Of a DNA stretch of 64,000 nt, positions 3,714-36,639 are shown in pieces. Location: assembly GCF_003076475.1 (NCBI RefSeq), contig NZ_CP020919.1, positions 2,542,001-2,606,000 of the forward strand. Reading direction: 5' to 3'. A model generated the notes under the pieces. It saw only the letters and a list, made by a program, of their open reading frames with translations. It made no database searches and was not told the DNA's origin. The translations under genes were made by a program, and so were the position numbers. Every line of letters starts with the position of its first letter. Within the stretch, counting starts at the first letter, position 1. Origin of the DNA: Flavobacterium kingsejongi. Lineage in GTDB: Bacteria; Bacteroidota; Bacteroidia; Flavobacteriales; Flavobacteriaceae.

Positions 3714-4277
3714 ATGAAAACAAAAAATTTAGTATCAGCTGCTCTTTTAGCACTTACAGTATTCTGCGGAACTTCAGCTTTTGCACAAAAAGAAAAAACA
3801 GTTATGGTTGGAGGCGCTGCCATGTATCCTTCTAAAAACATTATCGAAAATGCGGTAAATTCAAAAGACCATACTACCCTGGTTGCTGCAGTTAAAGCGG
3901 CAGATTTAGTAAGTACTTTAGAAGGAAAAGGGCCATTCACCGTTTTTGCTCCAACGAATGCTGCTTTTAACAAACTTCCAAAAGGTACAGTAGAAACATT
4001 ACTGAAACCAGAAAACAAAAAAATGCTTCAGTCTGTACTTACCTATCACGTTGTTGCAGGTAAAATGGACAGTAAAGCGATTGCTGCTGCAATCAAAGCC
4101 GGAAATGGTAAAGCAGTACTTACGACTGTAAGTGGTGGTAAACTGACCGCTATGATGGATGGAAAAAAATTAGTACTTACTGATGAGAAAGGCAATAAAT
4201 CAACTGTAACTATTGCAGACGTATACCAGTCTAATGGTGTAATACACGTAGTTGATACTGTATTAATGCAAAAATAA
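3714..4277 (+). CDS. Secreted fasciclin (FAS1) domain protein
   Basis: The 187-residue product has a Sec signal peptide (about residues 1-24, ending SAFAQ) and one FAS1 domain covering about residues 45-187. FAS1 landmarks are visible: the H1-like block GPFTVFAPTNAAFNKLP and the H2-like block VIHVVDTVLM near the C-terminus, with YHVV between them. FAS1 modules are extracellular adhesion folds; in bacteria their ligand is usually unknown. The gene stands alone between the rpsA terminator and its own terminator. No lipobox is seen, so the protein is probably periplasmic or released. Confidence 0.92.
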   Translation: MKTKNLVSAALLALTVFCGTSAFAQKEKTVMVGGAAMYPSKNIIENAVNSKDHTTLVAAVKAADLVSTLEGKGPFTVFAPTNAAFNKLPKGTVETLLKPENKKMLQSVLTYHVVAGKMDSKAIAAAIKAGNGKAVLTTVSGGKLTAMMDGKKLVLTDEKGNKSTVTIADVYQSNGVIHVVDTVLMQK

Positions 4278-23164: not shown

Positions 23165-24546
23165 GGGAGTAGTCGTTAGATTGTGTAAACGTAGAAATTG
23201 ATTTTAATTTGATTTGAGATTTTAAGGCTTAGCCAAAAAACAACAGATCATTAAGTATAGAATTTAAAAGAACTACATTTAAATAATTTAAAAAGAGCGG
23301 ATTATGATCGAAGATGGTAAATTACCCAAAGATTTTGCAAAGCAATTTAAAAACAAAGAAGACTTCCATACTTTTTTTCAAGACCTGTATAAACAAGGCA
23401 TTGAACAACTACTCCAGGGAGAATTGGATGCTCATCTGGGATATGAGAAGCATAATATTGACGGATACAATACAGGCAATAGCCGTAATGGTTCTTTCTC
23501 AAAGAATATAAAATCAGAGACTTTGGGCAATATGGTCCTGGCTATTCCCCGGGATAGAAATGGTGAATTCGAGCCTCAGGTCATCGGAAAAGGCCAATCG
23601 ATGAGTGAAAAGATTGAAGATGCTATTTTAGGAATGTACAGTCGTGGAATGACCCGTAGTGATATTGTAGAACAAGTTAAAGAAGTTTATGGGATATCAG
23701 TAAGTGAGTCCACGATTTCGACCATCTCTGATAGAATACTGGCTGATGTTGATTTATGGACTAAAAGGGCTTTAGAACCACAGTATCTGATTGTTTGGAT
23801 GGATGCTGTGCATATGAAAGTAAGAACAGATGGGAAATATGAAAACCATGCAATTTACATTGTAATCGGACTAAAAACAGATGGTAAGAAAGAAGTATTA
23901 GGAATGTGGCTAAATAAAGAAGAGTCGGCTTCATTTTGGATGACTGTACTCTCTGACATAAAATCTCGTGGAGTAAAGGATATTCTCATTGCCTGTACAG
24001 ATAACCTTACCGGATTTACAAAAGCTATCAGAGGTGTTTTTCCAAATACAGAATCCCAGCTTTGCATTGTTCATCAAATAAGGAATAGCCTTAAGTTTGT
24101 AGTAGTTAAGGATAGAAAAGCATTTTGCAGTGCAATGAAAGAAGTATATACTGCAATAAATCAGGAAGAAGCCGTTTTAGCTCTGGCTGAATTTAAAAAA
24201 AACTGGGAAGCAAAATATAAATATGCCGTTTGCTCCTGGGAAAAGAATTGGGAAAATCTCATGCCTTTTTTGGCCTATCCTGCTGAAATCAGGAAAATAA
24301 TGTACACCACAAATACAATAGAAAACTTAAACAGGGGAATTAGAAAATATACCAAAACAAAAGTGCAGTTCCCAGATGAAAAAAGCGTCAAGAAATCAGT
24401 CTATTTAGCAATACAAAATTGTGAAAAAAGCTGGATAAATGCAATACCAAGCTGGGGATTAATCATGAATCAGTTCTTGGTCATATTTGGAGAAAGGTGT
24501 AATATTAAACACTAAGAACTGTTTACACAAAATTTCGACCAGTCTC
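23165..24546. mobile_element. Inner, intact IS256-family element (1,382 bp)
   Basis: Inserted inside the transposase gene of the outer copy with a perfect 8-bp target duplication TGTTTGGA (23157-23164 and 24547-24554), the usual length for IS256. Both ends and the transposase are intact. Sequence identity with the outer copy indicates very recent transposition. Confidence 0.93.
23304..24515 (+). CDS. IS256-family (mutator-type) transposase, intact
   Basis: A 403-residue DDE transposase. Catalytic acids are seen in WMDAVHMKV (about residue 167), IACTDNLTGF (about 233) and TNTIENLNRGIRKYTK (Glu about 340). The N-terminal region includes ELDAHLGYEKH and NSRNGSFSKNIKSE, standard for the family, and the CVHQIRNS-like block (CIVHQIRNSLKFV) follows the second Asp. 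The start lies 139 bp inside the left end and the stop about 31 bp from the right end. It is the only complete transposase of this type in the window. Confidence 0.95.
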   Translation: MIEDGKLPKDFAKQFKNKEDFHTFFQDLYKQGIEQLLQGELDAHLGYEKHNIDGYNTGNSRNGSFSKNIKSETLGNMVLAIPRDRNGEFEPQVIGKGQSMSEKIEDAILGMYSRGMTRSDIVEQVKEVYGISVSESTISTISDRILADVDLWTKRALEPQYLIVWMDAVHMKVRTDGKYENHAIYIVIGLKTDGKKEVLGMWLNKEESASFWMTVLSDIKSRGVKDILIACTDNLTGFTKAIRGVFPNTESQLCIVHQIRNSLKFVVVKDRKAFCSAMKEVYTAINQEEAVLALAEFKKNWEAKYKYAVCSWEKNWENLMPFLAYPAEIRKIMYTTNTIENLNRGIRKYTKTKVQFPDEKSVKKSVYLAIQNCEKSWINAIPSWGLIMNQFLVIFGERCNIKH

Positions 24547-25270
24547 TGTTTGGATGGATGCTGTGCATATGAAAGTAAGAACAGATGGGAAATATGAAAA
24601 CCATGCAATTTACATTGTAATCGGACTAAAAACAGATGGTAAGAAAGAAGTATTAGGAATGTGGCTAAATAAAGAAGAGTCGGCTTCATTTTGGATGACT
24701 GTACTCTCTGACATAAAATCTCGTGGAGTAAAGGATATTCTCATTGCCTGTACAGATAACCTTACCGGATTTACAAAAGCTATCAGAGGTGTTTTTCCAA
24801 ATACAGAATCCCAGCTTTGCATTGTTCATCAAATAAGGAATAGCCTTAAGTTTGTAGTAGTTAAGGATAGAAAAGCATTTTGCAGTGCAATGAAAGAAGT
24901 ATATACTGCAATAAATCAGGAAGAAGCCGTTTTAGCTCTGGCTGAATTTAAAAAAAACTGGGAAGCAAAATATAAATATGCCGTTTGCTCCTGGGAAAAG
25001 AATTGGGAAAATCTCATGCCTTTTTTGGCCTATCCTGCTGAAATCAGGAAAATAATGTACACCACAAATACAATAGAAAACTTAAACAGGGGAATTAGAA
25101 AATATACCAAAACAAAAGTGCAGTTCCCAGATGAAAAAAGCGTCAAGAAATCAGTCTATTTAGCAATACAAAATTGTGAAAAAAGCTGGATAAATGCAAT
25201 ACCAAGCTGGGGATTAATCATGAATCAGTTCTTGGTCATATTTGGAGAAAGGTGTAATATTAAACACTAA
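24547..25270 (+). pseudogene. IS256-family transposase, C-terminal fragment
   Basis: Continues the outer transposase after the inner insertion, from WMDAVHMKV to the natural stop, identical to residues 166-403 of the intact copy. It keeps all three catalytic acids but lacks the N-terminal DNA-binding part. An internal ATG at 24554 could in principle start a 238-residue product. Confidence 0.88.
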
Positions 25271-25767: not shown

Positions 25768-27186
25768 TTATCGGTTGGTGTTTACTGCAGGGCTGATATT
25801 AGGATTGGCATCAATTTCTTCCTGTGGAATTTTAAGTTCAAAACGGCGGTCATCCGGGACTAAATTAATTTGGGTTCTGTGGTTCCCGGTTCTTGTAATG
25901 CCGCGAAGCAGTCGTTTGGCATCATACCATTCAATTCCGTTTTCACCATAAAATTCTTTCCGGCGTTCGGTCAATACCAGTTCTATCAAGGCCGAACCAC
26001 TCGCTGCAGTAGGCTGGGCCTGTGTATCACGATTCAGGCGCAGGGCATCCAATAATTCCCGGGTGCGGCTTTCATTACCCAAATGGAATTCAGCTTCAGC
26101 TTCAATAAGGATCAATTCCGGATAACGGATAATTGGGATATCAGCATCGAATGTAAATTTGAATTTTGAAGTCACAAATTGTTGCCAGTCACCAACCGGG
26201 GCATTGTAGAGATTGGAGAATAAATTCCGTACATCGGTAGCGGAAAACAAATTCACAAAATCATCATTGATAAAGGTTCCGTGATAGGCGATGGCAACAT
26301 GGTCCATCATCGCATGGGGATGTGACATATAATAAGCCGTTTGATCCGGAGTCTGTGGCAATCCCCATAACCATTCGGTAGCATTGATATCGTCAAATCC
26401 CTGAGTGTAAGCGGCAGCGTTTAAAACAGCTGCCGGATTACCGCCATAAGCAGCAATAGCGGCTGTTTTGGCTTTAGTCCAGTCTCCCGTATATTGGTAG
26501 ACCTGCGCCAAAAATGCCTGCGCGACCTGGTTGTTGATATACGATTTGTCCACTCTGGTTTGTGGTAATCCCGCCACAGCGTCTTCAAGGTCACTTATGA
26601 TCTGGTCGAAAAATTCCGCTTTGGTCGACATGCCTTTTCCGGTCGAGGTAGGCTCTGTATAGATAGGAGGGAAGTCCAGGTTTTTGGAAGACGCATACGC
26701 ATCACCAAATTCCAGGGCTAACTGAAAATAATAGAAACCGCGCAGGGCAAGTGCCTGGGATTTGGTTTCGGTCTTATCCGTTTCAGAAAGGGCATTACTG
26801 GACTCGATACCATGGATCAGGTTGTTCAGCTGATCGATAATTTTATAGGAAAACCTCCAGCTGAAATTCGGTCGGGTGTAGGTCGCTTCGCGGTTTTGGA
26901 AATCGTAATCATCCCCAAACCAGATTTGCTTCTGGATTAATGCTTCGCCTTTTACACTGCGGGCAAAATAGATGGATTGCAATCCTGCCGCTTCATTGTT
27001 TAAAAACTGCCCTCTGTTCAGTCGTAAAATTCCGGCGATAAAAGCATCGACACCTTCCCGGTTGCTGAAAATAACTTCCGGGGTAACATTATTGGTCGGT
27101 TTTGGATCGTCTAAGTAATCAGAAGAACAACCGATTTGCTGAAAGCTAAGGGCAAGGACAGCAATACTGAGATATATTTTTTTCAT
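25768..27186 (-). CDS. SusD/RagB-family outer-membrane lipoprotein
   Basis: A 472-residue surface lipoprotein that acts as the lid of a SusC channel and binds the nutrient. The signal peptide ends in the lipobox QIGC with lipidated Cys20. The SusD fold shows as TPR-like helices (ALALRGFYYFQLALEFGDAYA near residue 145) and the C-terminal block ELILIEAEAEFHLGNESRTRELLDALRLNRD followed by LTERRKEFYGENGIEWYDAKRL. It follows its SusC partner by 11 bp, so the two are cotranslated. The substrate is not readable from sequence; no glycan-degrading enzyme is nearby, so this need not be a polysaccharide locus. Confidence 0.93.
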   Translation of the reverse strand: MKKIYLSIAVLALSFQQIGCSSDYLDDPKPTNNVTPEVIFSNREGVDAFIAGILRLNRGQFLNNEAAGLQSIYFARSVKGEALIQKQIWFGDDYDFQNREATYTRPNFSWRFSYKIIDQLNNLIHGIESSNALSETDKTETKSQALALRGFYYFQLALEFGDAYASSKNLDFPPIYTEPTSTGKGMSTKAEFFDQIISDLEDAVAGLPQTRVDKSYINNQVAQAFLAQVYQYTGDWTKAKTAAIAAYGGNPAAVLNAAAYTQGFDDINATEWLWGLPQTPDQTAYYMSHPHAMMDHVAIAYHGTFINDDFVNLFSATDVRNLFSNLYNAPVGDWQQFVTSKFKFTFDADIPIIRYPELILIEAEAEFHLGNESRTRELLDALRLNRDTQAQPTAASGSALIELVLTERRKEFYGENGIEWYDAKRLLRGITRTGNHRTQINLVPDDRRFELKIPQEEIDANPNISPAVNTNR

Positions 27187-27197
27187 GTGGATTAAAA

Positions 27198-30100
27198 TTA
27201 AAAATTAAGGTTAAACCCTAAGGTAATAGTACGTTGTAATGGTGCCCTGAAATTAGTCGTTCCATCAATACTTTGTTCTGGATCTATTCCTTTATGGGAC
27301 TGGAACGTCAGCAAATTATCCCCTTGCAAATACAACCGGGCCTGGCTGATTTTGAGTTTGCGGATACTATCAATAGGCAGGCTGTAACCGAATGTTAGTG
27401 CTTTCAGCCGTACATAATCATTCTTGTACAGGAATCGGGATGAGGTGGCCGCAAAGTTATTGGTGGAGTTCAACAGTACCGGTACATCGGTGCTATCGCC
27501 GGGCTGTGTCCAACTGTTGGCAATATCTGGAGAACTTTGCCTGCCTCTGGAAATTCCGCCCATCAGGGAAGCATAATCGGAATCATACACATAGGCCCCT
27601 ACACTGAAATTGAACAATACATTCAAATCAAATCGATACAACTGAAACGTATTGGTAATTCCACCGGTTATTTTCGGAAGTGCTGAATGTTGGTAATACC
27701 GTGTCGCTTCGTCATAATTTTTAGTGGTCTCTTTACCCGTAACCGTGCCATTAGCATCCACAATGTCTTTATACCACATTGCATACCCGTCATTAGGATC
27801 TACACCGGCATAATCCCGGATATAAAAATCATACAAAGAGCGGCCTACCTGCCATTGGTTTAATCCGGTGATAAAGGATTCCTGCGTAAGTTTGGTAATC
27901 TTATTGCGATCCAGCGAAAAATTCAATTGCGTATTCCAGGAGAATTTTTCACGTTTGATGTTGTGTGATGTCAGGCTCACCTCAAGGCCATAGTTTCGTA
28001 AAGAACCCGCATTGGTCAGGATGCTGGTATTCCCTGTCGAGGAAGGCGTAGGTACATTATACAGCAGGTCAATAGAACTCTTGTTGTAATAGTCGATCGT
28101 ACCTTCAATACGGTTATTGAACAGGCTAAAATCGAGGCCAATGTTAAAAGAACCTGTTTTTTCCCAGGTTAGGTTTTCATCTACACGATCGCCCAGCAAT
28201 ACCCCGGGATTGCCCAATTGGCTGTGTCCGGTTTCAAAACTCTGGATATACGGGAAAAATGAAGTCGTCTGGTTATTTCCTAATTCCCCATAGGAACTCC
28301 TCAATTTCAACAGGCTGAGCACATTGCTATTTTTAAGGAAATTTTCATCCGAAATGATCCAGGAAGCACCCACGGCATAGAAATCACCCCAACGCACTTT
28401 TTTAGAAAAGCGGGACGATCCGTCTCTTCGGTAGGACGCTTCAAGGAAATATTTATTTTTGAAATCATAACTGACCCTTCTTAAAATACTATTCAGGCGG
28501 TCTTCCACCACATATCCTCCAACAGATTCTGGTGTTGTGCCACCGCCAATAACAGTGACACCCGGCAGGAATCCGGTTGCAGAAGCAGAGAACAAATCAT
28601 TTTTAGACTGATACGCTTCATAAATCACATCGACACCTAAATTATGGTCTCCAAAACTTGTATCATAGCGTAATGCATTAATGAAATTTAAAGTTTGGGT
28701 CACTGTTTTTTCACGGCTTACGCGCCCATTGACACTCGAAGCCTGGCCATAGACAGAATTGGTATACGCATTGGAATCAAAAGAATAATCTTCAAAAGCC
28801 AGATTGGTTTTAAACGAAAGTTTTTCTGCCAGCTGGAATTTAGCATAGCCATTCAGGTTGATGTTGCTTCGGGTATTCCCTTTTTTGTCATTGTAAAGCG
28901 ATCCTACTGCGTTGTCACCACTCATTAAAGGGCGTACTCCGTTGACCAATTGGGTATTGTTCCCATAATCATAGATTGGGGCTCCGTTATTGGTAATAAT
29001 AGTTCCATTCTGATCCCTGCGGTATACCGGGTAAATACTGGGTGTCGCATACAGCCAGTTCATGGCACTTGTAAATTGTGTTCCGGACTGTACGGGAAAA
29101 TTCTGGTTGGATGCCGAATAGGCTACATTGGTTCCCACGTCGAGCCAGTCATTTACCTTGGTATCGATATTCAGTCGAACGGTCGCTCTTTCAAATTTGG
29201 AAGTTTTAACCAGTCCTTCCTGATTTAGGTAGTTGGCAGATAGGAAATAAGAGGTATTATCGCTACCGCCACTTATGTTGGAATTATACTCGTTACGAAA
29301 TGCCTGGTTCCGGAACAGCTCCTCTTTCCAGTTGGTATCCCAAATCAACTGGGCATCCGGGTTCAGTTGCCCACTATTGTTGATGAAATTCGATGTATTG
29401 TACGGATTATACCCCATAGCACTTACCATTCCTGTGGTAGCATTAGTGGCTGCATTTTCCGGTGTCTGACCCTGTACATACTGGTAAGTATTCTTTCGGG
29501 CCTGCCACAGGTAGCTGACATAATCATTACTGCCCAATACCTCATGGGTTTTTACGGCATCACTGGCAACTCCGGAAGAAACGCGGAAGCTCACTTGTGG
29601 CGCTGTGTTTTTGCGGCCTGATTTGGTTTTGATCACGATAACACCATTTGCCCCACGGGATCCGTATAAGGCGGTAGAGGCAGCATCTTTTAAAACATTC
29701 ATCGACTCAATCTGATCCGAACTGATGGAGTTGATGTTCCCATTGAAAGGGACACCATCTACAATAATCAGCGGAGAAGAAGAGGCATTGATAGATCCGA
29801 TTCCACGAACACGGATTGTCGGGCTTTCTCCCGGTTGGCCACTGGAGTTGATCACACTCACGCCCGGGACAGAACCTTGTAAGGCCGAAAGTACCGAGGT
29901 CGCCTGTTGCTTTTCGAAAACCTCACTGCCCACTTTTCCTATAGCTCCCACAACAGCACGTTGTTTTTGGGTTCCATAGGCGACAATCACAATTTCATCC
30001 AGCCCTATGGTTTCTTCTTCCAGCCGGATCACTACTGAGGGCTGGTGACTGACTTTGATTTCCTGCGTTTTAAACCCCATAAAGGTCACAACCAGAATAG

Positions 30101-30305
30101 CATCCGGACTGGCTTTGAGGGTGAATTTTCCGTCCAGGTCAGTTTGGGTACCCTGATTCGTATTTTTGACCACTACCGATACTCCGGGAAGTGATAGTTG
30201 GGAGGCATCTGTTACTATTCCCGAAATCTGTTTCTCCTGTGCTACTGCTATTTGCACACTGAAAAACAAAAATCCGAATAGCAATTGGGATAATTTAATT
30301 TTCAT
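27198..30305 (-). CDS. SusC/RagA-family TonB-dependent outer-membrane transporter
   Basis: A TonB-linked beta-barrel for large nutrients. From the start chosen here (30305; MKIKLSQLLFGF) it has a clear signal peptide ending AVAQ; an upstream in-frame ATG at 30353 would add 16 residues without signal character and lies within the leader hairpins. Then come a carboxypeptidase-like domain (ISGIVTDASQLSLPGVSVVV), the linker EIVIVAYGTQKQ, the plug (VRGIGSINASSSPLIIVDGVPF... LKDAASTALYGSRGANGVI), and a barrel ending in RTITLGFNLNF with the terminal aromatic residue. About 1,035 residues is typical. Transcription seems to enter through the leader at 30310-30680, because no promoter is seen directly upstream. 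Confidence 0.95.
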   Translation of the reverse strand: MKIKLSQLLFGFLFFSVQIAVAQEKQISGIVTDASQLSLPGVSVVVKNTNQGTQTDLDGKFTLKASPDAILVVTFMGFKTQEIKVSHQPSVVIRLEEETIGLDEIVIVAYGTQKQRAVVGAIGKVGSEVFEKQQATSVLSALQGSVPGVSVINSSGQPGESPTIRVRGIGSINASSSPLIIVDGVPFNGNINSISSDQIESMNVLKDAASTALYGSRGANGVIVIKTKSGRKNTAPQVSFRVSSGVASDAVKTHEVLGSNDYVSYLWQARKNTYQYVQGQTPENAATNATTGMVSAMGYNPYNTSNFINNSGQLNPDAQLIWDTNWKEELFRNQAFRNEYNSNISGGSDNTSYFLSANYLNQEGLVKTSKFERATVRLNIDTKVNDWLDVGTNVAYSASNQNFPVQSGTQFTSAMNWLYATPSIYPVYRRDQNGTIITNNGAPIYDYGNNTQLVNGVRPLMSGDNAVGSLYNDKKGNTRSNINLNGYAKFQLAEKLSFKTNLAFEDYSFDSNAYTNSVYGQASSVNGRVSREKTVTQTLNFINALRYDTSFGDHNLGVDVIYEAYQSKNDLFSASATGFLPGVTVIGGGTTPESVGGYVVEDRLNSILRRVSYDFKNKYFLEASYRRDGSSRFSKKVRWGDFYAVGASWIISDENFLKNSNVLSLLKLRSSYGELGNNQTTSFFPYIQSFETGHSQLGNPGVLLGDRVDENLTWEKTGSFNIGLDFSLFNNRIEGTIDYYNKSSIDLLYNVPTPSSTGNTSILTNAGSLRNYGLEVSLTSHNIKREKFSWNTQLNFSLDRNKITKLTQESFITGLNQWQVGRSLYDFYIRDYAGVDPNDGYAMWYKDIVDANGTVTGKETTKNYDEATRYYQHSALPKITGGITNTFQLYRFDLNVLFNFSVGAYVYDSDYASLMGGISRGRQSSPDIANSWTQPGDSTDVPVLLNSTNNFAATSSRFLYKNDYVRLKALTFGYSLPIDSIRKLKISQARLYLQGDNLLTFQSHKGIDPEQSIDGTTNFRAPLQRTITLGFNLNF

Positions 30306-30351
30306 TTTTTTTAAATAAATAGGATTAATTTTGGCAGCACAATACACTCGC

Positions 30352-30380
30352 ATCGTTTTTTAGCTGCTATAAAAAACGAT
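30352..30380 (-). promoter_or_regulatory. Second leader hairpin ahead of SusC
   Basis: Perfect 10-bp stem ATCGTTTTTT / AAAAAACGAT with a 9-nt loop, lying between the leader terminator and the SusC start. It could shield or expose the ribosome-binding region, or assist termination. Confidence 0.6.
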
Positions 30381-30382
30381 AC

Positions 30383-30410
30383 AAAAAAAGGAGGCTCACA
30401 TAAGCCTCCT
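30383..30410 (-). terminator. Terminator between the Cys-rich leader ORF and SusC (possible attenuator)
   Basis: On the minus strand AGGAGGCT / AGCCTCCT with a 6-nt loop is followed by seven T. It stands inside the transcript leading to SusC, so read-through is required for SusC/SusD expression. The CTCC that ends the leader ORF could pair with the GGAG of the 5' arm and compete with the terminator. Confidence 0.8.
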
Positions 30411-30441
30411 TTGTTCGATACAAAGTTGAAAGCTTATTCTT

Positions 30442-30615
30442 TTAGGAGAGTTCCATACACCCGTTTTGGGCTGTTGTAGTGATATAGGAAGTTGAAGTAC
30501 TACAACAATTTTTCAGCACGCCACAGCAACACATCATACCGTTTTGAAATCCAAAGAAGATTTTAGAGATCGTGGTAGTGTGGGCTGTTTCAAGGGTAAA
30601 ATGTGAAAAAATCAT
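30442..30615 (-). CDS. Cys-rich short leader peptide (candidate)
   Basis: A 57-residue frame (72 if started at 30660) with a run MMCCCGVLKNCC: five Cys codons in a nine-residue stretch. No homologue is recognised. It lies just downstream of a TAAATTTG element and just upstream of a strong terminator that precedes SusC. The second Cys pair is part of a hairpin (TGTTGTAGT / ACTACAACA, + strand 30472-30508). The layout is that of a transcription-attenuation leader whose translation reports on charged tRNA-Cys. Alternatives are a real small metal-binding or modified peptide, or a chance frame. The start codon is uncertain. Confidence 0.45.
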   Translation of the reverse strand: MIFSHFTLETAHTTTISKIFFGFQNGMMCCCGVLKNCCSTSTSYITTTAQNGCMELS

Positions 30616-30674
30616 GTACTTTATTTTAAAAATCAATAGTGGAAAAGGCTTTTTTAACATTCCTTTTGCTGGTA

Positions 30675-30682
30675 CAAATTTA
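30675..30682 (-). promoter_or_regulatory. -7 element (TAAATTTG) of the leader/SusCD transcript
   Basis: Read on the minus strand this is a perfect TAnnTTTG. The matching TTG about 20 nt upstream is not clear. It would start a leader of about 365 nt before SusC. Confidence 0.5.
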
Positions 30683-30808: not shown

Positions 30809-31273
30809 ATGATGACACTCGACGCCACCGATAAAAGACTACTGTTAGAACTGCAAAAAGATGCCAAACAATCCATAAAGCAGCTGGCAGAGAAAGTAAA
30901 CCTGTCTATTACCCCGGTACATGAGCGTATCAAAAAGATGGAAGCTGCCGGTGTAATCCAGAATTATGCTGCGGTCATTGACCCCAAAGCACTCGGAAAA
31001 AAATTATTGGTGTATTGCCAAGTTACCTTAGTACGGCACCAGGAATCGCTTTTTGAAGAGTTTGAAGCCTATGTACTCGGGCTGGATGAAGTTTTAGAGG
31101 CTTCTTACATCGCGGGGACTTATGATTTTCTGCTCAAGCTTTTACTGGAAGACATGGAAGATTACCAGAATTTTGCTGTGCATAAAATTTCTAAGCTGGA
31201 AATCATTTCCAACATCAAGAGCTCTTTTGTGATCCGGAGTATTAAAAAGACCTCCGTGATTCATTGCATTTAG
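30809..31273 (+). CDS. Lrp/AsnC-family transcriptional regulator
   Basis: A 154-residue regulator with an N-terminal winged helix (LDATDKRLLLELQKDAKQ, then SITPVHERIKKMEAAGVI) and a C-terminal RAM ligand-binding/oligomerisation domain (about residues 65-150). The family senses amino acids and binds as dimers to octamers. The first two codons are both Met; either could start. It is divergent from the SusCD leader with only 150-190 bp between them, which makes that operon an attractive target. Together with the Cys-rich leader this hints at an amino-acid or sulfur-linked uptake system; that is inference. Confidence 0.9.
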   Translation: MMTLDATDKRLLLELQKDAKQSIKQLAEKVNLSITPVHERIKKMEAAGVIQNYAAVIDPKALGKKLLVYCQVTLVRHQESLFEEFEAYVLGLDEVLEASYIAGTYDFLLKLLLEDMEDYQNFAVHKISKLEIISNIKSSFVIRSIKKTSVIHCI

Positions 31274-36285: not shown

Positions 36286-36639
36286 TTAGCTTATTTTAGG
36301 TGGAAGCCAAATAGCCCGAGAATCAGTAGCGATAAAGATTTCGGAATAGAAGAAATTTTGTTTTTTGTCAGAAAAACCAAAAAGTGAATTGGTTTCGGTT
36401 TGCAATAGTATGGGAGCATAACCGCAGTATACAGTAGGACATCCGCAGGAAACCCCTTTACAGCTGTTATCGCAATGGTGCTCTTTTGATTGTGTCTCTT
36501 TTTCCCTGCAACAGGATTGCGAGGCAGATTCACTATGGCAACAGGACATTTTAGGTTCCATACCATGCGAAAAGGATAACGTTGGCCCAAAAAGAAGACC
36601 CAGCGTAACCAATACCAATATGTAAAATTTATGTCTCAT
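36286..36639 (-). CDS. Small exported Cys/His-rich protein
   Basis: A 117-residue protein with a signal peptide (about residues 1-24) and nine Cys plus several His in residues 31-75 (MSCCHSES, SCCREKE, HHCDNSC, SCGC, YC). Such a cluster suggests soft-metal binding. The C-terminus is not Cys-rich. It is the first gene of the leftward metal/thiol cluster. A TATCTTTG element lies only about 10 bp before the start (36648-36655), which implies a very short leader or a different promoter. No family name is recognised. Confidence 0.7.
   Translation of the reverse strand: MRHKFYILVLVTLGLLFGPTLSFSHGMEPKMSCCHSESASQSCCREKETQSKEHHCDNSCKGVSCGCPTVYCGYAPILLQTETNSLFGFSDKKQNFFYSEIFIATDSRAIWLPPKIS

Follow-up and report, generated by a model that had tools for sequence, protein, structure and literature searches.

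A putative cysteine/methionine leader-peptide attenuator upstream of a SusCD transporter pair in Flavobacterium kingsejongi

Results

A Cys/Met-rich leader ORF and an intrinsic terminator precede a SusCD pair

The window analyzed here, the whole stretch of 64,000 nucleotides from Flavobacterium kingsejongi, carries on its minus strand a gene for a SusC/RagA TonB-linked transporter followed by one for a SusD-like lipoprotein. By Pfam, a SusC with a TonB plug and a CarboxypepD_reg domain is followed by SusD, as in SusCD/RagAB pairs, and the best solved chains are those of a SusC homolog (8aa4) and RagA (6sli). The features of the locus are as follows.

30809-31273, plus strand: divergent Lrp/AsnC regulator (Pfam)
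30675-30682, minus strand: TAAATTTG, a TAnnTTTG promoter box 5' of the leader ORF
30442-30615, minus strand: leader ORF of 57 codons, MIFSHFTLETAHTTTISKIFFGFQNGMMCCCGVLKNCCSTSTSYITTTAQNGCMELS, containing MMCCCGVLKNCC; a 72-codon form from 30660 is possible
30502-30537, minus strand: main control-codon cluster, MMCCC (30523-30537) plus CC (30502-30507)
30454-30459, minus strand: last control codons, Cys-Met, 19-22 nt 5' of the antiterminator
30400-30437, minus strand: predicted antiterminator, AUAAGCUUUC (30428-30437) pairing with GGAGGCUUAU (30400-30409)
30380-30412, minus strand: intrinsic terminator, AAAGGAGGCU...AGCCUCCUUU and a U tract, with an 11-pair stem at 30387-30412
30334-30382, minus strand: second hairpin, GUAUCGUUUUUU/AAAAAACGAU, a possible H-type pseudoknot
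27198-30305, minus strand: SusC/RagA TonB-linked transporter, 1035 aa, start ATG at 30303-30305 (Plug PF07715, CarbopepD_reg_2 PF13715)
25768-27186, minus strand: SusD-like lipoprotein, 472 aa (PF14322, PF07980)

We take the TAAATTTG box to be a promoter motif of the Bacteroidetes -7 type. The 57-codon start of the leader was chosen because the position of its ATG is roughly kept in the orthologous loci L092 and L093. A preliminary description of this DNA had listed several elements, and all are present on the minus strand: the TAnnTTTG element, a short ORF with Cys codons (the one with MMCCCGVLKNCC, ending at 30442), a GC-rich terminator with a T-run (the 11-pair stem and the T-run after it) and a further hairpin 3' of the terminator. 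The divergent gene that it called Lrp/AsnC is one by Pfam, and its statement that SusC lacks a promoter of its own agrees with an exact motif scan, which found no TAnnTTTG between terminator and SusC.

A terminator scan returned 2 sites against 0.4 expected, and an intrinsic terminator lies between the leader ORF and the gene. The 368-nt leader RNA folds with a z score of -4.1, and none of 100 shuffles was equally stable. At gathering level Rfam had no match in the whole window, and the covariance model of the SAM riboswitch (RF00162) found none at the SusC leader.

Orthologous SusC loci share the layout

Used as a query against 299 genomes of the family, the 72-aa form of the leader returned itself and 11 weak matches that proved chance-like on inspection, so we turned to SusC orthologs instead. 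Among 398 same-genus genomes, taken from a larger group, a cut-off of at least 60% SusC identity over the full length gave 13 loci, which come from 12 genomes including that of the window. A common layout is found in twelve of these loci: promoter box, Cys/Met-rich leader ORF, predicted antiterminator at or just past the leader stop, GGAGGC/GCCTCC terminator and second hairpin. Counts out of 12 below refer to these twelve SusC loci, in each of which a TAnnTTTG match starts 36-80 nt 5' of the leader ATG. The thirteenth locus, the tandem second SusC of genome G594, has neither leader nor terminator and keeps part of the second hairpin. In the layout locus of the same genome (L095, G594:C78), which this duplicate SusCD adjoins, terminator and second hairpin are separated by an insertion, about 150 nt long, whose ends resemble inverted repeats.

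We built a covariance model of terminator and second hairpin from 11 of the 12 loci and ran it on the 398 genomes. Its 12 matches at or above 55.6 bits coincide with these SusC genes, and the next best score among the matches listed is 37.2 bits; as 11 of the 12 loci went into the model and are bound to match it, the argument lies in the gap down to 37.2. At an E value of 0.01 the model matched in 126 of the 398 genomes, and the other matches (about 27-37 bits among those listed) were taken for ordinary terminators. None of the 12 listed SusC relatives at 49-56% identity has this terminator. The 12 closest of 25 loci were read directly, and L101-L113 were examined through the covariance model alone, which never scored above 37 bits in their genomes.

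A tree of 11 layout loci (L100 omitted) joins them in one clade (100/100). At L100, in genome G628, the SusC frame is interrupted by a stop, and the leader is the poorest of the 12 in control codons; with its frame interrupted in this way, the L100/L129 locus may be decaying. Two contig-end SusC pieces of G428 (60% and 54%) were left out of the counts, and no leader stands upstream of the 5' piece. The window's genome has 13 other SusC-like genes, four scanned for Cys-rich ORFs alone and nine for Met/Cys-rich ORFs and terminators; they showed a few chance-like ORFs and no terminator. Among the nine, L198 has an apparently miscalled start.

Leader peptides are enriched in cysteine and methionine

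The window's leader, which has no family match in Pfam, contains 6 Cys and 3 internal Met. Not one of 2000 dinucleotide shuffles of its region produced an ORF with as many Met plus Cys codons. The excess recurs in all 12 leaders, with 0 to 14 of 2000 shuffles of each one's own region equally rich; all are short ORFs in which codons of one amino acid, or of two related ones, are over-represented.

In three loci, the window's and those of its two nearest relatives, the leader is rich in Cys and also contains some Met (...GMMCCCGVLKNCC...CMELS; ...GMMLCKCCW...TCC...WCMDIS; ...GMMLCMGCCLYMGICC...WCMDIS). Control codons in L092 and L093 are arranged much as in the window (MM..C..CC....CC), and CM stands a few codons 5' of the leader stop in L001, L092 and L093. 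The other nine leaders carry Met-x-Met: FSMCMEKMCMS (twice), FSMCMEKMCVP, FAMKMETMCMS, FAMKMEMMGMS, FSMNMTSMCMP, FSMNMAGMSMP, FSMIMASMRMP and the weaker NCSMYMEYSIFK of L100. The preliminary description had named Cys as the control codon and pointed to an alignment of orthologs for conserved Cys codons and terminator/antiterminator pairing. Comparison of the orthologs bears out the terminator/antiterminator layout in 12 of the 13 loci and Cys, together with Met, in the window's clade, whereas outside this clade the conserved codons are mainly Met.

Five leaders are 31 codons long, and in these Met is invariant at positions 23, 25, 28 and 30 while residues 24, 26, 27 and 29 vary. Columns 5, 13, 15, 16 and 21 past the start Met are invariant too, so that conservation in these leaders is not of Met alone. 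Between clades, the peptides have little in common beyond their Cys/Met clusters.

The predicted antiterminator lies within reach of a ribosome at the leader stop

All 11 pairs of the terminator stem are kept in the 11 aligned sequences and never vary, which makes covariation uninformative about them. The 5' arm of the terminator is common to terminator and antiterminator. Because alignment A1 misplaces the antiterminator between clades, we took its pairing from individual folds, in which the RNA of each of the 12 loci was folded up to the terminator 5' arm. A comparable hairpin is predicted in every one: 8-10 of the first ten arm bases, GGAGGCUUxx, pair near the leader stop, the shared form being an AAGCUUU-type segment that lies at or just past the stop and pairs with GGAGGCUU. 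In the window the pairing encloses an inner helix of the CUUUGU/ACAAAG type.

Predicted energies run from -7.4 to -14.5 kcal/mol over the 12 loci (-13.7 kcal/mol in the window). Across loci, 0-122 of 1000 shuffles were equally stable (23 in the window), and between 12 (the window) and 288 of 1000 had as many arm bases paired; this single-sequence support is modest, and the argument is the agreement of twelve loci. The predicted antiterminator would exclude the terminator in all 12, and paired changes occur at two positions: arm positions 9 and 10 form A-U and U-A in the window and U-A and G-C in L021, L022, L096, L097 and L099. The tenth position is unpaired in L092, L094, L095, L098 and L100, and the L092 antiterminator pairs CCUC with GAGG.

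A ribosome covers roughly 12-15 nt of RNA in front of its A site. Since the leader stop codon is -10 to +9 nt from the antiterminator arm in all 12 loci, and control codons stand at least 15 nt from the arm everywhere except for one Cys at 8 nt in L094, the arm would be masked by a ribosome that has reached the stop codon but, that Cys aside, not by one at a control codon. The window's arm starts 7 nt past the stop, so a ribosome there would cover it and the terminator would form; all Cys/Met control codons lie at least 19 nt before the arm, which would be free when a ribosome stalls on them. The preliminary description had reached this stop-or-stall logic through a pairing of CTCC in the last leader codons with GGAG of the terminator; the logic survives, but CTCC is found in the last six codons of just one of the 12 leaders, and the predicted partner is a different one. 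It had likewise described a hairpin over the Cys codons. Its arms, TGTTGTAGT/ACTACAACA, are present in the window, but the exact 9-bp hairpin occurs in 1 of 12 loci, and we found no conserved replacement that might act as a protector (1:2) hairpin.

A second hairpin is conserved between terminator and susC

In the second hairpin the loop sequence GCAGC (30363-30367) is able to base-pair with GCUGC (30334-30338), which lies some 24 nt to its 3' side. Hairpin and loop pairing are kept in all 11 aligned orthologs, with one mismatch each in L001 and L093. In the loop helix, which is almost invariant, 97% of cells are paired in the 11 sequences; for terminator, hairpin and loop helix together the figure is 96%, falling to 45-61% when the partners are slid. 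Covariation is sparse: three pairs change on both sides, a number equaled in 45 of 500 shuffles; further pair types were as many in 220 of 500, and the covariation score was reached in 1 of 500. No Rfam family scored over its cut-off for this hairpin, and weak matches were at chance level. We regard it as a possible H-type pseudoknot and possibly a further RNA control element.

Methionine and cysteine operons of the same genomes carry similar leaders

We surveyed the company of these loci in 13 genomes, the 12 with the layout plus G318, naming genes by inspection unless a family is cited. All 13 have a Met or Met/Cys leader before the met operon (L154-L158, L184, L187, L188, L230-L234; for example MMMTMMM and MMMAMMMMNMMM), and a leader containing MCMC, with a terminator, precedes four of six cysH-cysD operons for sulfate assimilation/cysteine (PF01507; L180-L183), counts that carry some selection because the searches targeted Met/Cys-rich ORFs. 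A hairpin or terminator was scored after the met leader in nine genomes, and the met leaders are tandem in eight. In the window's genome they include MKITICNMCRTMW... and ...ICMNMICRIMMCCYRCCHCQMK, and in front of an OsmC-type gene, which itself lies before metH and metF, stand two tandem leaders, MKITICNMCRTMWNLSAGDSFA and MTAGTTICMNMICRIMMCCYRCCHCQMK, both with a hairpin and T-run after them. No MCMC leader stands before the cysH-cysD-cysN operon of the window's genome or before one of the two copies in G533. At three of L180-L183, the MCMC leader lies ahead of an apparent Rrf2-type regulator gene.

Five of the Met-leader genomes (G373, G356, G565, G657 and G556) have neither PF02574 (MetH type) nor PF01717 (MetE type). 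PF01507 is missing from the same five and from G408, G594 and G318. The absence of MetB matches in the five was not taken for loss of the pathway, as all 13 genomes have a full-length PF01053 enzyme; what we claim is limited to the missing methionine synthases. Lacking both synthase families, these genomes can be expected to rely on methionine import, unless they have another route.

SAM riboswitches occur in the window's clade and at related SusC genes

RF00162 is found in 3 of the 13 genomes, those of the window's clade; in the window's genome it occurs twice, once before metH (PF02574) and once before a PF01053 enzyme. Of the ten genomes lacking this riboswitch, five have tandem met leaders, such as MNTVYTMMMTMMMWRNPQGLLFA and MIYNTNTMMMAMMMMNMMMFTPPYCLKSTS, and five a single Met leader.

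RF00162 is also present 5' of a SusC homolog (38-40% identity) in seven of seven Chryseobacterium loci (L035, L037-L040, L043 and L045, at about 3754-3893) and in none of the 43 other SusC loci scanned (50 of 51 were scanned, a few with little upstream DNA). At least four of the seven riboswitches are followed by a tiny CC-containing ORF such as MIHDLICCLFYKS. In the tree, the Chryseobacterium SusC clade groups as sister (100/99) with L028, a SusC from the same genus as the window whose leader ends in SMHTSMCMCPCCFL, a join that is provisional given the tree tool's long-branch warning. A second such leader, ending in QLASCMCC, is present in G628 (L118). The hairpins of the L028 and L118 leaders lack a good U tract, and we therefore do not call them attenuators. 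The sister relation between the riboswitch-bearing clade and leader-bearing L028 suggests that one SusC lineage may be under SAM control in one genus and behind a Cys/Met leader in another.

Discussion

We conclude that the element upstream of susC is probably a ribosome-mediated transcription attenuator responding to the supply of cysteine and/or methionine. This reading draws on the parts of the attenuator and on their conservation, spacing and company, as seen in sequence and by comparison. It upholds the proposal, made from the window alone, of a leader-peptide attenuator with Cys codons before SusC in which stalling leads to read-through, the layout being kept in 12 of 13 orthologous loci.

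From these features we infer leader translation, stalling, read-through and the class of SusCD substrate, as follows. Transcription would begin just past the TAAATTTG box, and the leader ORF would be translated behind RNA polymerase. With charged Cys-tRNA and/or Met-tRNA plentiful, the ribosome would reach the stop codon and sit over the 5' arm of the antiterminator; with this arm covered, the GGAGGC/GCCTCC terminator would form and transcription would stop before susC. When Cys or Met is scarce, the ribosome would stall at the Cys/Met codons, leaving the arm free to pair with the 5' half of the terminator. The antiterminator so formed would let polymerase read through and SusCD be made, which would import a source of sulfur amino acids, perhaps peptides.

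Leader-peptide attenuation of the trp/his type controls amino-acid operons. The SusCD locus shares with it a leader ORF of cognate codons, an intrinsic terminator and a competing antiterminator whose 5' arm a terminating ribosome would cover; it differs in that the genes are an outer-membrane uptake pair and not a biosynthetic operon, the codons are Cys/Met, the leader stop coincides with or lies close to the start of the antiterminator arm, and a conserved protector hairpin was not found. The met and cys candidates are closer in kind: they lie in the same genomes, use the same codon types and have a terminator scored past the leader in nine of the 13 met operons and in all four cys operons with a leader, and in the window's clade Cys codons occur in SusCD and met leaders alike, but the met leaders are often tandem and their hairpin sequences differ from those of SusCD. 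At the Chryseobacterium SusC genes, control by a sulfur metabolite is shared, although exerted by a small-molecule aptamer instead of a leader peptide. Work by Canestrari in 2020 reportedly described mycobacterial poly-cysteine leaderless sORFs whose Cys codons sense cysteine supply; these too are short upstream ORFs with Cys codons, whereas the SusCD locus has a strong intrinsic terminator and a transporter. A citing paper presents the mycobacterial sORFs as translation attenuation of cysteine biosynthetic genes (PMC13236596). Within Bacteroidota, one report gives clues that amino-acid operons of F. psychrophilum are preceded by leader-peptide attenuators (PMC9723704), and another notes sORFs resembling leader peptides in B. 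thetaiotaomicron (PMC7366714). In the literature within reach of our search, outside which most subscription journals fall, we found no description of an attenuated SusCD. The design is classic, and its use on an outer-membrane nutrient channel looks new.

The nascent leader, rich in MxM and CC, might instead bind copper or another soft metal and thereby alter termination, much as CruR does. MxMxxMxM and CC motifs are soft-metal ligands, and CXXC, the sensor motif of CruR, occurs in two of the 12 leaders (L092 and L093). In Bordetella, according to work on CruR-bfrG, an upstream ORF with a Cys motif controls a TonB-dependent transporter through termination (PMC9426467), a parallel to our locus; CruR, however, is described there as a DUF2946 protein that senses copper by CXXC and acts through a RAPP arrest and Rho, whereas the window's leader has no Pfam match, RAPP is found in none of the 12 leaders and CXXC is missing from ten, the window's included. 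The same codon types moreover precede met and cys operons, and a SAM riboswitch stands before a homologous SusC. We consider metal sensing unlikely.

It is also quite unlikely that the terminator does no more than close a gene for a small leader RNA or small protein, with SusC expressed by constant read-through or from an unseen promoter and nothing sensed. Our scan for the exact motif leaves room for promoters of other types, but it found TAnnTTTG between terminator and SusC in none of the 12 loci; stop codon and antiterminator stay close together in all 12, and between clades the leaders are alike in little other than their Cys/Met clusters. That the Lrp/AsnC protein is the true amino-acid regulator of susC and the leader a remnant is very improbable, for although a divergent Lrp gene adjoins the window's SusC and six of the 11 others (7 of 12, by inspection), the remaining five have mutS upstream instead (by inspection; one extra gene between in three) with leader and terminator intact, and the Lrp gene is therefore probably an incidental neighbor, not a needed part.

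SusCD substrates are hard to predict from sequence, and a signal spelled in codons, as in Cys/Met attenuation, would give the substrate class directly. It would also extend attenuation from amino-acid biosynthesis to outer-membrane uptake. The locus also hints at a regulon in which Met/Cys leaders and SAM riboswitches would take each other's place across Bacteroidota, and import would matter most in the five genomes that lack the methionine synthase families and keep SusCD and a Met leader. More tentatively, and with less than even confidence, we suggest that this clade uses its SusCD pairs as dedicated importers of a Met/Cys source, that these pairs fall under a set of Met/Cys attenuators found in part of the genus and replacing SAM riboswitches in many of its species, and that the pseudoknot-like element forms a second, previously undescribed layer of RNA control.

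Other features of the window

At 23304-25270, a transposase-like gene (403 aa, by inspection) is followed by a 238-aa ORF identical to its C-terminal part. On the minus strand at 36286-36639, near proteins that resemble thioredoxin and heavy-metal-domain proteins by inspection, a small His/Cys-rich protein, CCHSESASQSCC..., may be metal related.
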